This document shows positions 7,171 to 22,768 of a DNA stretch of 27,775 nt, one piece after another (the stretch's first letter is position 1; every line of letters starts with the position of its first letter). Under the pieces are notes generated by a model. It was given only the letters and a program-made list of their open reading frames with translations, was not told where the DNA came from and did not search any database. Position numbers and translations under genes: made by a program. The stretch lies in the IMG/VR virus record IMGVR_UViG_3300035698_032001, positions 1 through 27,775 of that record; one strand, 5' to 3'. The DNA comes from a virus.

Positions 7171-10100
7171 TTATCCGCCACATGCTCCATATGATGTTTG
7201 ACATGATAGACAAACACCACACTTGACAGTGCCCTTTGTTCTCCACGACCCACATTCTTCACATCGTATTCCAGAATATCCTCTAGATTTTGCCTGATTT
7301 GATTCTGATACTAATGGTGGTTCTTCTCCATTTTCTATATCATTATCCCAAACTGGTACTATCTTGTCGGAATCAAGACCGTTATACTCCGTATGAAGCT
7401 TAGTAAGAACTTTAGCTGTAAGATCTGATAGACTTTTTGCGGTTCTAATTCCGAGATCATTCTTCCTTAGGAATCCCGCAGGACTAAATTGTAATCCTTC
7501 CATGGTAGAGCATAAAGCTTCAATTGGAACTCCATATTGTATTGCTATAGAGCATATTCTTCCAATTGTATCTGCAAGTCCATTAACAGTTGGATTCTCT
7601 TTTCCTACTTCCATCCATACTTCCGATATTCCGTTGTTTGGGAATCTAACAATATTCATCCAGACATTTTCTGATCCTATATTAAAGTTCATTCTTTCTG
7701 ACTGAGCTCTATTAGCAGCTTTCTTTCTTGTTAATAACCCTCTGTGAAATTCCCAAAAATCATCTGGCGATGTTTGGCGAAAATCTGAAGATAATAATCT
7801 GTCACGCGTTCGTTTTATTTCTCTTTTAATCGTTTCTTTCTTAAAATTACTATTTTTAGAATTTAATGGCTGAGACCATTTCGACCCTGATCGGTATAAT
7901 GCTAAACCCTTGCACCCTTTTTTCCATCCTTCAATATAACAATTCCAAATATCTTCTCTTGTTGCATCCTCTGGCAAATTAGTTGTTTTACTAATTCCTC
8001 CAGAAACGAAAGGTGTTGCCGCGGCAATAGCTCCGACATGTGCGTTCTTATCAATGCACCGGCTTCCGTTTCCGTCAACATTTGCAGTATCAAATATTGG
8101 GTAGTGCTGCAAGCTTAGATAAGGAGCTCCCTCAACGGTTCCGTTTTCAAGGATATAATCACTTATGTCTTTAACTTGATCATGATTGTACCCTAAATCT
8201 TTAAGTGCAATTTTTGCCTCTTCGCATAATAGTTCGACAACAGATCCATCGCTCATAAGTTTATACGCACAAAGAGAATATGAAGGCTCGATTCCATTAT
8301 TGGTTGTTCCCATCAAAAACATAACCGTTCCGGTCGGAGCTACAACAACTGCCTGTGAATTTCTAACACCGTGTCTTTGTATGAGATTAGTAGCTTCTGT
8401 CCAAGATTCCGTTGCTGCTTGGTGTATTTGTTTCGCAAATTTAATTCTTGGTTTTAATTCCGAGTTTGCTTCTTCGTGTTTTTTAATAACTTTAAGAAAA
8501 CATTGTTTATTTTTACCATATTCATTGAATGGTCCTACTACAGAAGCGATTTTTGCTGACTGGGCATAAGCAGTAGATGTTTCAAGCGACGTTATTGTTG
8601 ATATAATAGAACGAGCCTGATCTGAGTCATATGGATAACCTAAAATCATAATAAGACCACCCATGTTACAATAACCTAGACCAAGTGGTCTTGTATCCTT
8701 TGTCATCTCGGCAATTTCCTTGGAAGGATATGATGACCCACCAACAATAATTTCCATTGCAGTAATAAAATATTCAATACTAGCTTTAAATGAAGCAATA
8801 TCAAATGTTTTATCTTGATTCAAGAATTTAACTAAATTCAATGAAGCTAAATTGCAAGATGTTTTATTTAAGTGGAGAAATTCACCACATTGTTTTATTA
8901 AAACAAACGATTTAGTTAGTCTGTTTTCGCTGTCTCTTGATTCTTTTTCGCCAATAAAGAAATTATGGAATTCATCTACGGTGCCATTGTATACGTCTTC
9001 ATATCCATCTTTTTCAATTGAGATAACTCTATGGTTATAACTTGATGCTGCTTCTTGTAATTTTTTATAATTTCTAAATGGACTTGAAGGTCTTGATATT
9101 TCAGGACTTATATTTTTATTTCTACAAGCTTGTACCCATTCTTTCTTTTGTGGTATATTTCCTAATGATAATTTCAAATCATTAAAAATGTTTATTTGTT
9201 TATCTCTTATACCTACTTTTTTATTTTTAACTCTGGTTTTTAATTTTAATAATGTTTGTTCTTCATTTTTTTCCCATGTTGTTTTGAAAGAGCACGACTG
9301 AGAGCAAAACGCGCGTTCTCTATTTTCCCATTTTACTTGAAATGTTGTATTGCAGCGCTCGCATTTTTTATCAATAGTAAATTTAAAATTTGTATTTTGT
9401 ATTTTTACGTTTTGATAACCTAAATCAAGTGCATTATAATAATTATCAACATTTCTATAAAAGCTTTTAAGTGAGGCAGCTGGAAGATTTAATTCTCGAG
9501 CAGCTTTACAAGATAATTTCATTATACTTCCAATTTCTTTTTTTCTAAAAAGTGAAAAACTAGAAAAAATTCCTTTTTCTTTTGCATACCTTGTCCATTC
9601 ATTCTGAGTAAACGATCTTTTTAAAAGAGAACAAAGAATTTTAGCATGTTCATAAATTTCATCACTAGAAATATTAATATATCTTCCATTTTTTTCTCCA
9701 GCTGTAGCTTTTGACATATTTCTTCTATATCTTTGTCTTTCTTCTTCTGTGGCTATATTCCACCATCTATTTCTCATTGGATTTTTATCTCCAATCATAT
9801 CTACGGAGTGTAATAAATTATGGTCATATTTATCCATAACTGTAAGATTACTTGGAATATTATTGAGTCCGTTTCTATCATTGTGGTGAACTATTTCTTT
9901 CATGCCAATTTTTTTATTATTATAAAACTCGGCAATCATTCTATGTTCAGATTTTAATAATTTGTTTCCATCGTCTATCCATAAATAATTTTGACTTTTT
10001 GTTGGTCTTATATTTGTAAAAACTTCATTTAATTTTTTTTGTCTTTTAGTAAGAGAAGCAATTGAATCTCCATATTCGAGGTCTTTAGCTTCTACATGAA

Positions 10101-12309
10101 TGCCATTTCTCATTATGAATTTATGGTTTTCTGTACATCTCACGATAAGTCCGTCATCAAATGTTACTTTTAATATTTTTTTGTTTGTCCCTGTTAGTCT
10201 TGGGTTTCTCATTTGTCTAATAACTATTTTTTTATTATTATCCAGACAATATACTGGGATATCTTTTCCTTCTTCTGAAAGTTGTTTAATAGAAACAGTG
10301 TTTCTTCCATCGGCAGTTGCAATTAAAGTCTCTCCTGTTATACAAGGATTTGATCCCTCGATTTTGCCTGTGTTAGGAATAGTATTCCAATTATTGATCG
10401 TGTCAATAAAAAATACTCCTGGATCACCACACTCCCAATTAGCTTCAACTATTTTGTCGAATATTTCTCTAGCTTTTATAATTTTTTTCGTTTTTCCAGA
10501 TATTACGTATTTAAGTTCCCAGTCTTCGTCATTGATAACGGCTTTCATAAAATCATCTGTTAGAGCAATTGAATTATTGGCATTTTGTGCTTGAACTGTT
10601 TTATACGCCCCGTTTTCATCTGACCAGTTTTGCGGGTATCCCATTAGCATTAATGCTCTAGCTTTAAACTCTTCATTTTTTTTCCAGTCAATAAAATCTA
10701 ATAAATCTGGATGATTATCATTTAAAATAATCATTTTTGCCGCGCGACGAGTATTAAAAACAACTATTCCAGACCCAGTTTGTTTTTTGTTTGGCCATAT
10801 AACAAAATTATGTCCAGAATTTATTGTTTTGTCATCTGCGGTAGGGCACTCTACCTCTATAGAATAAACATCAGATTTATTTTTAAAGTTAACCGCTTTT
10901 ACTTTTTTCTCATTTTTATAAAAAGGAGATGACTTGTGCATTCCATTTTTACTTCCAGGTATATCAAATTTGGCCATTTCTTCGTTATGAATTTTTGCAT
11001 GTTCAGATTGCATTAATAATTCAAGATTATCAAGACTATTATCATATTTATAATTGTTTTTATGGTGTATAGATTTATTATCTAAATTCCAATTTAAAAC
11101 ATCTCGTGCAATAAGTTTATGTAAATATATTCTTTCATTTTTCTCGTTTTTTAAATTTATTCTTAAATATCCCATAGAATCATTAATAACACAATTAAAA
11201 ATACTCATTCCAAGTTGAAGTTTTCCAGCTTCAACGATTTCGCCAGAAGATAGTCTTACTGGATGATCTGTTGAAAGATAAAATTTTCCTTTATCTGTTA
11301 CTATTTCAACTATTTTTTTTATTCCACTTTTCCAACAGTGAGCTTTTTTAGCTTTGTACCTATTAGAAGGAGGATCATAACTAATACATATGAATTCTTT
11401 TCCATCTAGGTCTTTTGCTTTTATAGGCCCTTTTTCAGTATATACATATTGATCAGGAGCTAGACATTTTCCGCCTGATTTAATCACTCCTGCAGAAGCG
11501 TCGGCAACTTCTAAAAAAGATATTAAACCAGAAGATTTTCCACCTCCAGTAATAGGTTCGTCTTTTCCACGAATTTTTGATACATTTAGTCCTGATCCTG
11601 AACCACTGGCAAAAATAGACATTTCTGTTTTAATCCAGTCATATATCCCATTTTTGCCATTTATCAACTCGTCTTCTACTTCGGTGATGAAACAAGCGCT
11701 CCCACGTCCATTTTCATATTCAAATTCTTGTCGATATACGTCTTGGTCTCTATTTTTTATAGCCCATTGTTCTGAGCTTGTGTTTCCTTTAAAATTATAA
11801 ACATCATATAGACCCCAATTAAAGAAAACTGGAGAGTTGAAAGCTCCAATTTGATGTAAGATTAAATAACAAATTTCATTATATAGTATTTGACCATTTT
11901 CTTCATTGAAGTATTCCATTTGAACACCTCTATGTGAAATGCTGTATGCAACACGATGAATAACATCACGTACCGATCTTTCTCCACCTTGAGAATGATT
12001 TTCTAAATCACATGTTTTGAAATATTTATCAGCACATGTTCTAACGGCCATTTCATTCCATTCAACTGGATGTTCAACTTCATGGTCAAAAATTATTTTT
12101 TGGTCAAGGTTTTTTATCCGAACTCTAGTGGTTGACCATTCAACTTCGTCAAATGGATGGACGTCTGGTTTTGTAAAGAATCTTGTTAATTTTAATAATT
12201 TTTTTGGTACAATTTTTTCTTTTTCTTTCATTCTTTCCTCTTCTTTTCTATCTTCTTCACTGTTAGTGTTGAACACAACAATATTATTAATAGAAGACCT
12301 TTCAGTCAT
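7171..12309 (-). CDS. nrdJ: Class II (B12-dependent) ribonucleotide reductase with two inteins
   Basis: The 1712-residue precursor encodes adenosylcobalamin-dependent ribonucleotide reductase, which makes deoxynucleotides without oxygen or a second subunit. Extein segments are 1-281, 520-655 and 1141-1712, giving a mature enzyme of 989 residues. Visible landmarks are GSAC (C206, one of the redox pair), SGLISFLEVADASAGVIKSGG followed by TRRAAKM across intein 1, NP|CGE across intein 2 (C1141 is the expected thiyl-radical cysteine), SCNLASLNL with C1152, PTGTV, WKKGCKGLALYRSGS, and a C-terminal cysteine cluster (CEEC 1683-1686, CGVC 1697-1700, C1703, C1710) typical of the redox/zinc tail. The start follows AGGAGAAATTAAT. 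Both inteins lie in frame at conserved active-site sequence, so the enzyme depends on protein splicing. The gene sits upstream of the half antiporter in the same direction. Confidence 0.92.
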   Translation of the reverse strand: MTERSSINNIVVFNTNSEEDRKEEERMKEKEKIVPKKLLKLTRFFTKPDVHPFDEVEWSTTRVRIKNLDQKIIFDHEVEHPVEWNEMAVRTCADKYFKTCDLENHSQGGERSVRDVIHRVAYSISHRGVQMEYFNEENGQILYNEICYLILHQIGAFNSPVFFNWGLYDVYNFKGNTSSEQWAIKNRDQDVYRQEFEYENGRGSACFITEVEDELINGKNGIYDWIKTEMSIFASGSGSGLNVSKIRGKDEPITGGGKSSGLISFLEVADASAGVIKSGGKCLAPDQYVYTEKGPIKAKDLDGKEFICISYDPPSNRYKAKKAHCWKSGIKKIVEIVTDKGKFYLSTDHPVRLSSGEIVEAGKLQLGMSIFNCVINDSMGYLRINLKNEKNERIYLHKLIARDVLNWNLDNKSIHHKNNYKYDNSLDNLELLMQSEHAKIHNEEMAKFDIPGSKNGMHKSSPFYKNEKKVKAVNFKNKSDVYSIEVECPTADDKTINSGHNFVIWPNKKQTGSGIVVFNTRRAAKMIILNDNHPDLLDFIDWKKNEEFKARALMLMGYPQNWSDENGAYKTVQAQNANNSIALTDDFMKAVINDEDWELKYVISGKTKKIIKAREIFDKIVEANWECGDPGVFFIDTINNWNTIPNTGKIEGSNPCITGETLIATADGRNTVSIKQLSEEGKDIPVYCLDNNKKIVIRQMRNPRLTGTNKKILKVTFDDGLIVRCTENHKFIMRNGIHVEAKDLEYGDSIASLTKRQKKLNEVFTNIRPTKSQNYLWIDDGNKLLKSEHRMIAEFYNNKKIGMKEIVHHNDRNGLNNIPSNLTVMDKYDHNLLHSVDMIGDKNPMRNRWWNIATEEERQRYRRNMSKATAGEKNGRYINISSDEIYEHAKILCSLLKRSFTQNEWTRYAKEKGIFSSFSLFRKKEIGSIMKLSCKAARELNLPAASLKSFYRNVDNYYNALDLGYQNVKIQNTNFKFTIDKKCERCNTTFQVKWENRERAFCSQSCSFKTTWEKNEEQTLLKLKTRVKNKKVGIRDKQINIFNDLKLSLGNIPQKKEWVQACRNKNISPEISRPSSPFRNYKKLQEAASSYNHRVISIEKDGYEDVYNGTVDEFHNFFIGEKESRDSENRLTKSFVLIKQCGEFLHLNKTSCNLASLNLVKFLNQDKTFDIASFKASIEYFITAMEIIVGGSSYPSKEIAEMTKDTRPLGLGYCNMGGLIMILGYPYDSDQARSIISTITSLETSTAYAQSAKIASVVGPFNEYGKNKQCFLKVIKKHEEANSELKPRIKFAKQIHQAATESWTEATNLIQRHGVRNSQAVVVAPTGTVMFLMGTTNNGIEPSYSLCAYKLMSDGSVVELLCEEAKIALKDLGYNHDQVKDISDYILENGTVEGAPYLSLQHYPIFDTANVDGNGSRCIDKNAHVGAIAAATPFVSGGISKTTNLPEDATREDIWNCYIEGWKKGCKGLALYRSGSKWSQPLNSKNSNFKKETIKREIKRTRDRLLSSDFRQTSPDDFWEFHRGLLTRKKAANRAQSERMNFNIGSENVWMNIVRFPNNGISEVWMEVGKENPTVNGLADTIGRICSIAIQYGVPIEALCSTMEGLQFSPAGFLRKNDLGIRTAKSLSDLTAKVLTKLHTEYNGLDSDKIVPVWDNDIENGEEPPLVSESNQAKSRGYSGIRCEECGSWRTKGTVKCGVCLSCQTSYGACGG
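8890..10344 (-). other. Intein 2 of nrdJ (residues 656-1140) with HNH endonuclease and zinc finger, ending in Gln
   Basis: The 485-residue insertion begins at C656 (SNP|CITGETL) and ends at Q1140 before C1141 (LIKQ|CGEFLHL). Block B is CTENHKF (T726-x2-H729). An HNH domain spans about 788-835 (SEHRMIAEF, VHHNDRNGLNN, NLLH), followed by a NUMOD3-like GDKNPM/GEKNGR region (about 839-878) and a C4 zinc ribbon (C983, C986, C1002, C1006), probably for DNA-site recognition. Block F is DVYNGTVDEFHNFFIG. The terminal residue is Gln where most inteins have Asn, a rare but experimentally known type. The +1 cysteine is also the catalytic radical cysteine of the host enzyme. Confidence 0.88.
10753..11466 (-). 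other. Intein 1 of nrdJ (residues 282-519) with HNH endonuclease
   Basis: The 238-residue insertion begins with C282 (GGK|CLAPDQY) and ends with N519 before T520 (GIVVFN|TRRAAKM), restoring the conserved SGGKTRRAAKM of NrdJ. Block A is at the N terminus and block B at STDHP (T347-x-H349). A compact HNH endonuclease occupies about 387-441 (LHKLIARDVL, H415-H416, NLELL, EHAKIH), and block F reads DVYSIEVE. The penultimate residue is Phe instead of the usual His and the +1 nucleophile is Thr, both less common but known among inteins. Confidence 0.88.
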
Positions 12310-20648: not shown

Positions 20649-21437
20649 TTAATTATATATCTGAAGATAGAATTTTTCAGAGATTATTTCTTGTCCTTGA
20701 ATTTCTGTTTTAAACTGTACCCAGTATATACCTAGGTTGTAATCTCCGTCATCCGTAGAGTCAATCATAAAGTATCCTTCATTGTCGCCTCTAATATCTA
20801 CTGGAGACCACTCTGGGTCAGTAATAATATTTGCATCAGGATATTCAGAATTATATCCGCAACCTTCTATCATTTCTATCTTGACATAAAGACTGCCTCC
20901 TGTTTTAAGATTATAGTAAAATTGATCTAATTGCTCTTGAGCCAACGATTTAATTCCGATATCACCATGCACCGAAGGGAAAAATCCTATTTTCAAATAT
21001 CTTTTCGAATCTTTTACTATTTTTTTTGGGCTTAATGTAAAGCTTACATCATATAAAAATGGTCTATCTTCTGTTTGCGTAAGCTCAGCATATATTTCAA
21101 AATTATTGGTAATTTGACTAAAAGTTGATTCTGATGAATTAAACTTTATATACCAAATGTCAACATGTTTTCCTATTTCATACAAATTAGGATTTAATTC
21201 TAATTCTGACCTGTAATGACCGGATCCTAAATATACAATTGGACTAGAAGGATAGATAATTTCTTTGATTCTACGTCCGTCTGGATTACTCTCATTAATT
21301 TGCGATGGGTCTAAAAAGTAAATTTCTATTTTTTGAATGTCATACAAATCTACAAGACTGTTATTGTTATATGCATATAGATCTAAATTAATAGAATCTC
21401 CTAAGACTGCTGATTGGTATCTTTCTCTTATAGCCAT
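20649..21437 (-). CDS. Probable virion protein, beta-rich, 262 aa
   Basis: The N-terminal part (VLGDSINLDLYAYNNNSLVD...IQKIEIYFLDP, then SGHYRSELELNPN and HVDIWYIKF) has the alternating beta pattern of the immunoglobulin-like N-terminal domains of baseplate or fibre-attachment proteins. A second beta domain begins near residue 125 (YDVSFTLSPKKIVKDSKRYLKIGF) and ends with NLGIYWVQFKTEI. A similar opening is seen in the 227-aa protein at 22781, so they may be distant relatives. GAGGATATT precedes the ATG, and a terminator plus TATAAATA-like box lies immediately upstream, suiting late expression. Exact structural role unknown. Confidence 0.65.
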   Translation of the reverse strand: MAIRERYQSAVLGDSINLDLYAYNNNSLVDLYDIQKIEIYFLDPSQINESNPDGRRIKEIIYPSSPIVYLGSGHYRSELELNPNLYEIGKHVDIWYIKFNSSESTFSQITNNFEIYAELTQTEDRPFLYDVSFTLSPKKIVKDSKRYLKIGFFPSVHGDIGIKSLAQEQLDQFYYNLKTGGSLYVKIEMIEGCGYNSEYPDANIITDPEWSPVDIRGDNEGYFMIDSTDDGDYNLGIYWVQFKTEIQGQEIISEKFYLQIYN

Positions 21438-21466: not shown

Positions 21467-21474
21467 TATTTATG
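21467..21474 (-). promoter_or_regulatory. Candidate T4-type late promoter box CATAAATA
   Basis: The minus-strand octamer CATAAATA is one base from TATAAATA, the -10-like element read by T4 gp55 holoenzyme. It lies 30 bases before the ATG of the 262-aa virion-like gene, giving a short leader containing GAGGATATT, and directly follows a terminator hairpin. A gp55-like gene is present at 26313. Confidence 0.4.
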
Positions 21475-21503
21475 AAAAAAAGGAGATATTTCTATCTCCT
21501 TTT
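21475..21503 (-). terminator. Intrinsic terminator with GAAA tetraloop
   Basis: On the minus strand AAAAGGAGATA pairs perfectly with TATCTCCTTTT around a GAAA loop (arms 21503-21493 and 21488-21478), and the T run continues to 21475. It lies after the gp51-like stop at 21534 and so would end the gp26-like transcription unit. Confidence 0.8.
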
Positions 21504-21533: not shown

Positions 21534-21737
21534 TTACTTTCTCTTTTTATCCATATTTCTTAGATGTTCTTCTTCCTTTTCTTTTTGTTCTACAAACCTA
21601 TCAATTAGCCATTTTCTTTCAAATATTGGTATTTCTTGTATTTGATTGAATCCTTGTTTTAGGTGATAGATCATTATAAATTCTTCTTCAAATAGATTGC
21701 GTTTAAATCTTAGGACGTTCTCTTCGTCCGTGGGAAG
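21534..21737 (-). CDS. 51: gp51-like frame expressed by -1 frameshift from the gp26-like gene
   Basis: An open frame of 67 residues (LPTDEENVLR... to NMDKKRK) overlaps the end of the gp26-like gene in the -1 frame. The middle reads FIMIYHLKQGFNQIQEIPIFE then RKWLIDRFVEQKEKE, an alpha-helical pattern with a central I-P-x-x-E-R-x-W motif like those of short phage tail-assembly proteins. T4 has gene 51 (baseplate hub assembly) directly after gene 26. Upstream of the internal ATG at 21674 the frame contains no ATG, GTG or TTG before the overlap, and that ATG has only a weak GAAGAAG upstream, so a frameshift product is favoured. Internal initiation would give 46 residues. Homology to gp51 is positional and weakly motif-based. 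Confidence 0.55.
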   Translation of the reverse strand, partial: LPTDEENVLRFKRNLFEEEFIMIYHLKQGFNQIQEIPIFERKWLIDRFVEQKEKEEEHLRNMDKKRK

Positions 21738-22768
21738 AAAAAATTGACATCAATTGGAAGATCAAGTTCCCATTCGTGATAACAATATTCACAATGTATA
21801 TTAACATCTGTAATAATACCAAAATCTGGGTTATTGATTTTTTCGCGAAGAAAATTTGAATCTTTAACTCCCAAATTATTTACGATTTGTTCAATTTCGA
21901 TCTTGTTGGTAATACCTTCGATGTTAGTAATAAGCATGATGTTTCTTCGTACCAACGTATCATCTGGAGCATCAGATCTAAAACCACCGCGAATCATCAT
22001 ATCACGATGTCTTGTAAGTGCTCGTTCATCATCTCCAGTAGGAACTTTATATCGTATTGACAGTCCTGAATCTGGAAGTATACAGCTAATCTCGCCTTCA
22101 AAATCATCTGTGCACATTTCTATAGGCAATGTATCAAGATTTATTTCTTCTGTAAATTGCATTTCACAACTTGGGCATTTTACGTCGACTTCATAGTCTG
22201 GTCCATAAGAAATACCACGTATATAGAAGAGAAGGAATGTTCTATCTGCTGACAGCATTTTGCCAGATGGAATATTCTCATATATACATGAATCGAAAAT
22301 CTTATCTATTGCTTGTCCTGATCTAATAAGGCGAGGAGTAGAAATAATTTTTTCTTCCTCAATTGTCATTGGTCTAACATGAATTGGTTTATCTGGCTCA
22401 AGTCCGTATTTCTCATAGAGAAAACTTCGTGAAGGAAGCATTACTTCTTCAAATCTTTGTTTTTTCTTTAGTTGAGCAATAATGTCTTTTACTGTTTTGT
22501 TTCCAATTGTCTCAACCACCCCTGAGTTAATGTCTTCTTCTCTAATGAGTTCAGGAACCATACTTCTTTCTTCTTGAGTTGGAGGTGAAACTTGTGACAT
22601 TTTATTTGCTTGTTGTAATTTAATAGCAGTAAGTGCGTTTTCAGCTCCTTCAGGCATTTCATCATCTATTTCTGGTCTTAAATTTTGCATTCTCACTCCA
22701 GGACGACGTGGTTTTTGGTCTTTAGGTAATTCAAACATTGGCGGGCGTTTGTCGTTTGAATCTGTCAT
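21710..22768 (-). CDS. 26: gp26-like baseplate/tail assembly protein
   Basis: After an 85-residue disordered Pro/Glu/Gln-rich N terminus, the protein shows the T4 gp26-type pattern: VMLPSRSFLYEKYG (109-122), VRPMTIEEEKII (131-142), a helix with IDKIFDSC, FLLFYIRGISYGPDY (178-192) and a zinc-ribbon CPSC (198-201) paired with CEYC (326-329) near the C terminus. The family is known from T4 gp26 and cyanophage homologues and is required for baseplate hub assembly. It is 352 residues against about 208 for T4 gp26. AAAAGGAGATTTAT precedes the ATG. Near its end lies a slippery heptamer that would extend translation into the gp51-like frame (411-residue product), a layout like the lambda G/GT tail chaperones. 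Confidence 0.75.
   Translation of the reverse strand: MTDSNDKRPPMFELPKDQKPRRPGVRMQNLRPEIDDEMPEGAENALTAIKLQQANKMSQVSPPTQEERSMVPELIREEDINSGVVETIGNKTVKDIIAQLKKKQRFEEVMLPSRSFLYEKYGLEPDKPIHVRPMTIEEEKIISTPRLIRSGQAIDKIFDSCIYENIPSGKMLSADRTFLLFYIRGISYGPDYEVDVKCPSCEMQFTEEINLDTLPIEMCTDDFEGEISCILPDSGLSIRYKVPTGDDERALTRHRDMMIRGGFRSDAPDDTLVRRNIMLITNIEGITNKIEIEQIVNNLGVKDSNFLREKINNPDFGIITDVNIHCEYCYHEWELDLPIDVNFFFPRTKRTS
21713..21743 (-). promoter_or_regulatory. -1 programmed frameshift signal: T TTT TTC plus downstream stem-loop
   Basis: In the zero frame of the gp26-like gene the heptamer reads T TTT TTC (21743-21737), a canonical X XXY YYZ site on which both Phe tRNAs can re-pair at -1. Seven bases later comes a stem GGACG/CGTCC with a 7-base loop (21729-21713), a spacing typical of stimulatory structures. 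Zero-frame translation stops eight codons later at 21710. Confidence 0.65.

Follow-up and report, generated by a model that had tools for sequence, protein, structure and literature searches.

A gp26-family gene and its open -1 frame

The window analyzed here, a 27,775-nucleotide stretch of viral DNA, carries on its minus strand a gene for a protein of 352 aa (positions 21,710 to 22,768), with an AAGGAG ribosome-binding site, seen on reading the start region, directly 5' of its ATG. The protein belongs to the gp26 family: it matches Pfam PF12322 ("T4_baseplate") with 63.8 bits against a cut-off of 24.5 (E = 2.5e-17) and phrog_150 ("baseplate hub") with E = 9e-25, and it is 33 to 45% identical to its relatives in IMG/VR and in LR756511, a 595-kb uncultured phage. 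From these matches and relatives we read it as TAC-N, the short, G-like form of a tail-assembly chaperone.

A slippery heptamer, T TTT TTC (21,737 to 21,743, minus strand), lies in this gene in the zero-frame phase X XXY YYZ, the zero-frame codons being AAT TTT TTC TTC CCA. Seven nucleotides past it, after the spacer TTCCCAC (21,736 to 21,730), comes a putative stimulator, a 5-bp stem-loop (21,713 to 21,729, minus strand) with arms GGACG (21,729 to 21,725) and CGTCC (21,717 to 21,713) and a 7-nt loop. It ends directly before the zero-frame stop codon TAA (21,712 to 21,710), eight codons past the heptamer. In the -1 frame, a stop lies two codons 5' of the heptamer; counted from the heptamer, this frame stays open for 69 codons, 67 of them after the FF pair, up to a stop at 21,536 to 21,534. 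This open frame, which has homologous -1 frames in relatives, is the candidate C-terminal domain (TAC-C; 21,534 to 21,736 on the minus strand, stop included). The sole start codon in the window's -1 frame is an internal ATG (21,674 to 21,672) within the conserved domain, in line with the claim of a preliminary description of this DNA that no usable start codon precedes the overlap; the coordinates given there hold throughout, as do the heptamer, the 7-base spacer, the GGACG/CGTCC stem, the stop, and the 67-residue -1 frame. Tandem slippage would yield a predicted fusion of 411 aa, ...DVNFF-LPTDEENVLRFKRNLFEEEFIMIYHLKQGFNQIQEIPIFERKWLIDRFVEQKEKEEEHLRNMDKKRK, with a junction-spanning peptide that contains ...DVNFFLPTDEENVLR....

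The two parts of the predicted fusion were modeled separately with AlphaFold2. The model of the zero-frame protein has a mean pLDDT of 76.8 and is good from about residue 90. Its best fold match in the PDB is the HK97 tail assembly chaperone 2ob9, though with a probability of 0.63 and an E value of 0.33, which is not significant, and with partial coverage (TM score of 0.44 over 2ob9, about 100 of the 352 residues); the other PDB matches listed reach a probability of at most 0.08 each. Fold matches in BFVD are gp26-family proteins, the first being that of phage SP-15 (E = 2.8e-20; TM score, 0.85), and a sequence search of the PDB returned zinc-finger noise only. The -1 domain is modeled as a two-helix hairpin (pLDDT, 89.2; helices 7 to 27 and 40 to 68). 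Taken alone, the -1 peptide was not recognized in Pfam or PHROGs, the best match being phrog_20255 at an E value of 0.021.

The neighbors of the gene in the window are an AAA ATPase and, downstream, a gene for a 262-aa protein of no known family (20,649 to 21,437, minus strand). The latter is syntenic with the chaperone gene across the clade by tblastn: matches were found in 88 fetched loci, the best lying directly 3' of the -1 extension at 35 to 37% identity, and its product is possibly a tail or assembly protein. Between the two genes, just past the -1 stop, a hairpin, AAGGAGATA/TATCTCCTT, with a T run after it (21,471 to 21,503, minus strand) looks like an intrinsic terminator. Elsewhere in the window (7,171 to 12,309, minus strand), a 1,712-aa class II (B12-dependent) ribonucleotide reductase contains an intein that interrupts it, and an HNH-type match lies close by.

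Conservation of the heptamer and the -1 extension

When at least 100 open codons, a T6 heptamer no more than 20 codons from the stop, and at least 55 open -1 codons were demanded, the arrangement turned up a single time in the window itself and a single time among 200 dinucleotide shuffles. Conservation in relatives decides the matter: the cassette is genuine and conserved. In LR756511, the protein of which is 36% identical, the same T TTT TTC TTC CCA is followed by a homologous -1 extension. Likewise, an alignment-based scan found an exact in-frame TTTTTTC together with a -1 extension of 70 to 80 codons (about 75 aa) in 78 of the 80 best IMG/VR relatives; the remaining two do not differ from one another at this site, reading C TTT TTC, and have kept the extension. 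Heptamer and -1 frame are both conserved, and the programmed -1 frameshift that had been proposed to join the gp26-family protein to the -1 extension is supported by these relatives and is very likely real in the window. Phage records searched at the nucleotide level with this region gave no match, and an IMG/VR scan with the window protein as a single sequence gave no relative, whereas the alignment query succeeded. The nearest relatives are at most about 44% identical, and the window falls in an uncultivated clade near LR756511.

Past the zero-frame stop, substitutions among 57 non-redundant loci number 3,726, 2,315, and 6,531 at the first, second, and third positions of the -1 codons, respectively, and the median dN/dS of the -1 extension is 0.12 (44 pairs with finite dS). 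The low ratio and the third-position excess therefore indicate that the -1 frame encodes a protein under purifying selection.

Conservation does not extend to the stem-loop. In the window it has a folding energy of -6.8 kcal/mol (z about -1.5), but a search for a conserved downstream stem-loop in 57 relatives found none, with z below -2 in 8 of the 57 and a mean z of -0.35. It is possibly a stimulator of the shift and is the weakest element of the cassette. An upstream Shine-Dalgarno (SD)-like motif was not found in the window.

A second group with a -1 extension comprises 61 IMG/VR loci related to gp26 of Synechococcus phage S-H38. In these cyanophage-type loci the zero frame ends with NNT TTT TTN near the stop, and the -1 frame continues for 63 to 71 codons. 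The codon preceding TTT ends in T in all 23 non-redundant loci, whether it encodes Ala, Ser, Asn, or Asp, and an SD-like motif stands exactly 10 nt 5' of the heptamer in 21 of the 23, these loci being interrelated and the counts therefore not independent trials. Where the preceding residue is Ala, its codon is GCT in 8/8 cases, while elsewhere in these genes 26% of Ala codons end in T. In E. coli dnaX, an SD-like stimulator is found at the same 10-nt spacing.

A probable chaperone pair and alternative explanations

We consider it very probable that this locus encodes the tail-assembly chaperone of a large T4-like myovirus, in a short and a frameshifted long form. Most ribosomes would stop at 21,710 and produce TAC-N of 352 aa, while a minority would slip by -1 on T TTT TTC, with both Phe tRNAs re-pairing in tandem. 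The slipped ribosomes would read 67 more codons, giving TAC-NC, a 411-aa protein with the two-helix C-terminal domain. If lambda gpG/gpGT is a guide, the tape-measure protein would be coated by the N domain and the tail-tube protein recruited by the C domain, and neither form of the chaperone would stay in the virion. We infer the frameshift efficiency, the ratio of the two proteins, and their binding partners, and we take tape-measure and tube binding from lambda.

The gene context in annotated relatives is consistent with this role. In SP-15, LIS04, and immuto, the annotated order is sheath, tube, TAC, and tape measure, so that the gene lies between the tube/sheath genes and the tape-measure gene; the tape-measure slot is named as such in LIS04 and immuto and is a "putative tail protein" in SP-15. 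In Mel-JY01, the sheath, tube, and chaperone genes are followed by hypothetical genes. No tube or tape-measure gene was recognized beside the chaperone gene in the 27.8-kb fragment.

Conceivably, gp26 might instead be a structural baseplate-hub protein, with the long form as a minor structural variant and no chaperone pair at all. The "baseplate hub" annotation points that way, as does genetic work, cited in a T4 review (PMC3004832), that assigned gp26 to the T4 hub. In its table, however, the same review classes gp26 and gp51 among the chaperones of hub assembly, with gp51 absent from the particle, and the gene order by the tape-measure gene, the short/long architecture, and the 2ob9 fold match all fit a chaperone. 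We therefore regard a purely structural role as improbable; the chaperone reading is well supported, and so is the proposal in the preliminary description that gp26 and gp51 be recast as tail-assembly chaperones.

A second alternative concerns how the extension is translated. The -1 frame might be a separate small gene, reached by reinitiation or an internal start. An ATG in this frame precedes the domain core in 28 of 57 non-redundant relatives, overlapping the zero-frame stop in LR756511 (TAATG), and public annotations name fragments of the extension as hypothetical proteins. Yet 13 of the 57 loci, the window among them, have no start codon before the core, and an ATG accompanied by an SD-like motif is present in only 2/57. 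Reinitiation can thus not be the shared mechanism. Moreover, the window's single start would remove the first helix, and the need to encode particular amino acids does not account for the conservation of the heptamer and of the third-base T before it. We hold a separate gene to be distinctly improbable as a general explanation; reinitiation may nevertheless occur in some loci, for example in LR756511.

The long form might also arise from transcriptional slippage on the T run rather than from ribosomal frameshifting. The site does consist of six Ts, and some relatives have longer T runs. Six Ts are short for slippage by RNA polymerase, though, and the phase X XXY YYZ is kept while the last base of the heptamer varies among C, T, A, and G in the cyanophage-type group. 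The SD-like motif at the dnaX spacing in cyanophages and the many +1 relatives described below, in which the run is interrupted (TTT CTT TGG), also argue for a shift on the ribosome, and we find slippage of the polymerase very improbable. Finally, a broken gene or sequencing error, in which a continuous gene was split by one base and a single -1 step restores one open frame, is refuted by conservation and has next to no probability, the same break occurring at the same codons in LR756511, the cyanophages, and 80 independent IMG/VR loci with both frames conserved.

T4 genes 26 and 51, +1 relatives, and known systems

T4 gp26 and gp51 are paralogues, because both match PF12322 (E = 8.8e-64 for gp26 and E = 3.9e-52 for residues 1 to 201 of gp51). 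Along the 282 positions of phrog_150, gp26 aligns with 14 to 235 and gp51 with 13 to 280; as judged from these alignments, T4 gp51 is a gp26-like domain with a C-terminal extension. The preliminary description took the -1 frame for a gp51-like frame, which goes too far: it corresponds to just the C-terminal domain that gp51 also has. The window's -1 frame is not gene 51 itself: it encodes the C domain alone and lacks a start codon ahead of the core, whereas T4 gp51 has both N and C domains. Nor does T4 place gene 51 after gene 26, as had been stated. The two genes are divergent, lying head to head on opposite strands (26 on the minus, 51 on the plus), so they do not form one transcript and frameshifting cannot join them. 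The existence of gene 51 as a separate gene that has an ATG of its own, named beforehand as an observation that would speak against the frameshift, is thus found in T4, but this does not refute frameshifting elsewhere. In T4, the short form would come from gene 26 and the long form from its paralogue 51, fused in frame, without a frameshift; in most relatives, both forms would come from one gene via frameshifting.

A profile built from the cyanophage -1 extensions only finds residues 208 to 244 of T4 gp51 as its best non-self match (E = 1.9e-4), above 2,000 shuffled controls. The pooled profile of all extensions reaches T4 gp51 only at an E value of 0.12, level with shuffled sequences, and it is absent from the list obtained with the profile of the window's own clade. 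Since these other profiles fail, the link between the extension and gp51 rests on the cyanophage-only profile and the shared N domain, which suggest a modest case for homology of the extension to the C terminus of T4 gp51.

Six phage records (immuto, Mel-JY01, LR756508, SP-15, LIS04, and GXN1) have the extension in the +1 frame. The -1 profile of the window's clade matches these +1 extensions (E = 6.1e-11 for SP-15, 4e-9 for Mel-JY01, and 2e-7 for LIS04), and they are therefore homologous to the -1 extensions. Among 107 scorable loci from two further IMG/VR scans, the extension is in the +1 frame in 97 and in the -1 frame in none, with no clear match in 10. The +1 loci make up an SP-15-like and a Flavobacterium/Microcystis-phage-like group, and their sites are CUU/UUU_UGG_C or UUU_CGN. 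One +1 group has TTT_YTT_TGG_CCT in 65 of 71 non-redundant loci, and its P-site Leu codon is CTT in 16/16, compared with 18% of Leu codons elsewhere; the other has mostly TTT_CGN. The frame read after a -2 shift would be identical to that after +1; such a shift is unlikely at TTT_CTT_TGG but conceivable at pure T runs.

In a phylogeny of 63 N domains, the -1 and +1 sequences are intermixed, and branches with good support require a minimum of three changes for -1 and two for +1; given that the deep branches are long and that the positions of RaK2, XacN1, and gp51 are uncertain, the exact number of switches may differ. On balance, we lean slightly toward the view that PF12322 chaperones make the long form in three ways, by -1 shifting on T TTT TTN, by +1 shifting on CUU/UUU_UGG_C or UUU_CGN, and from a duplicated in-frame gene like T4 gene 51, and that the direction switched more than once while shift position and architecture were kept. 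Possibly, the +1 groups are a new variant. If they are unreported, they would constitute a natural experiment in which the recoding signal changes direction while the product is kept.

About 200 independent loci support the view that T4 makes its short and its long tail-assembly chaperone from genes 26 and 51, respectively, and that the usual route to the two forms in relatives is frameshifting. Vladimirov, Gautam, and Davidson are said to have named genes 26 and 51 in 2022 and to have described frameshifting as conserved in several T4-like groups. The remark in the preliminary description that such a fusion was not established for T4-like phages is outdated, and the claim to novelty fails, because these authors, according to papers that cite them, proposed it in outline in that year. 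A 2016 review had described G-T frameshifting as widely conserved "except T4" (PMC5009743). PRFect cites the 2022 study (Virology 2022;566:9-15) for T4-like phages in which a short gene exists beside a distinct long, fused gene (PMC10885494), and another paper cites it for -1 sites of the poly-T type within the TAC-N genes of such phages (PMC12846349). The window adds a new clade to the known T4-like frameshifting chaperones. It also calls for a correction of annotations, in which the C-terminal domain is now listed as tiny "hypothetical proteins" or is missing. At L002:3070-3183, L003:3863-3973, L006:3755-3874, and L009:3855-4037, pieces of the extension are entered as small hypothetical proteins in their own right or as predicted ORFs, and the extension is without annotation in LIS04, GXN1, and RaK2.

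Among known systems, lambda gpG/gpGT resembles the window in pairing a short form with a low-level -1 long form that aids tape-measure/tube assembly (PMC5009743), although its heptamer differs and sequence similarity is not to be expected. SP-15 (SP15_045, annotated as a baseplate hub subunit) and its Thornevirus relatives have the same N domain and a homologous extension, beside the gene in the tape-measure position, but SP-15 has the extension in the +1 frame at TTT_CAC, in contrast to the -1 shift at T TTT TTC in the window. The CTT_TGG_C site of the +1 loci recalls the release-factor-2 site CUU_UGA_C. The T4-like chaperones of Vladimirov et al. (2022), as described in citing papers (PMC10885494, PMC12846349), combine in several T4-like groups a gp26-family N domain, a C-terminal extension, and a poly-T -1 site, as the window does. 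T4 itself, with two separate genes, stands apart from the single frameshifting gene of the window.
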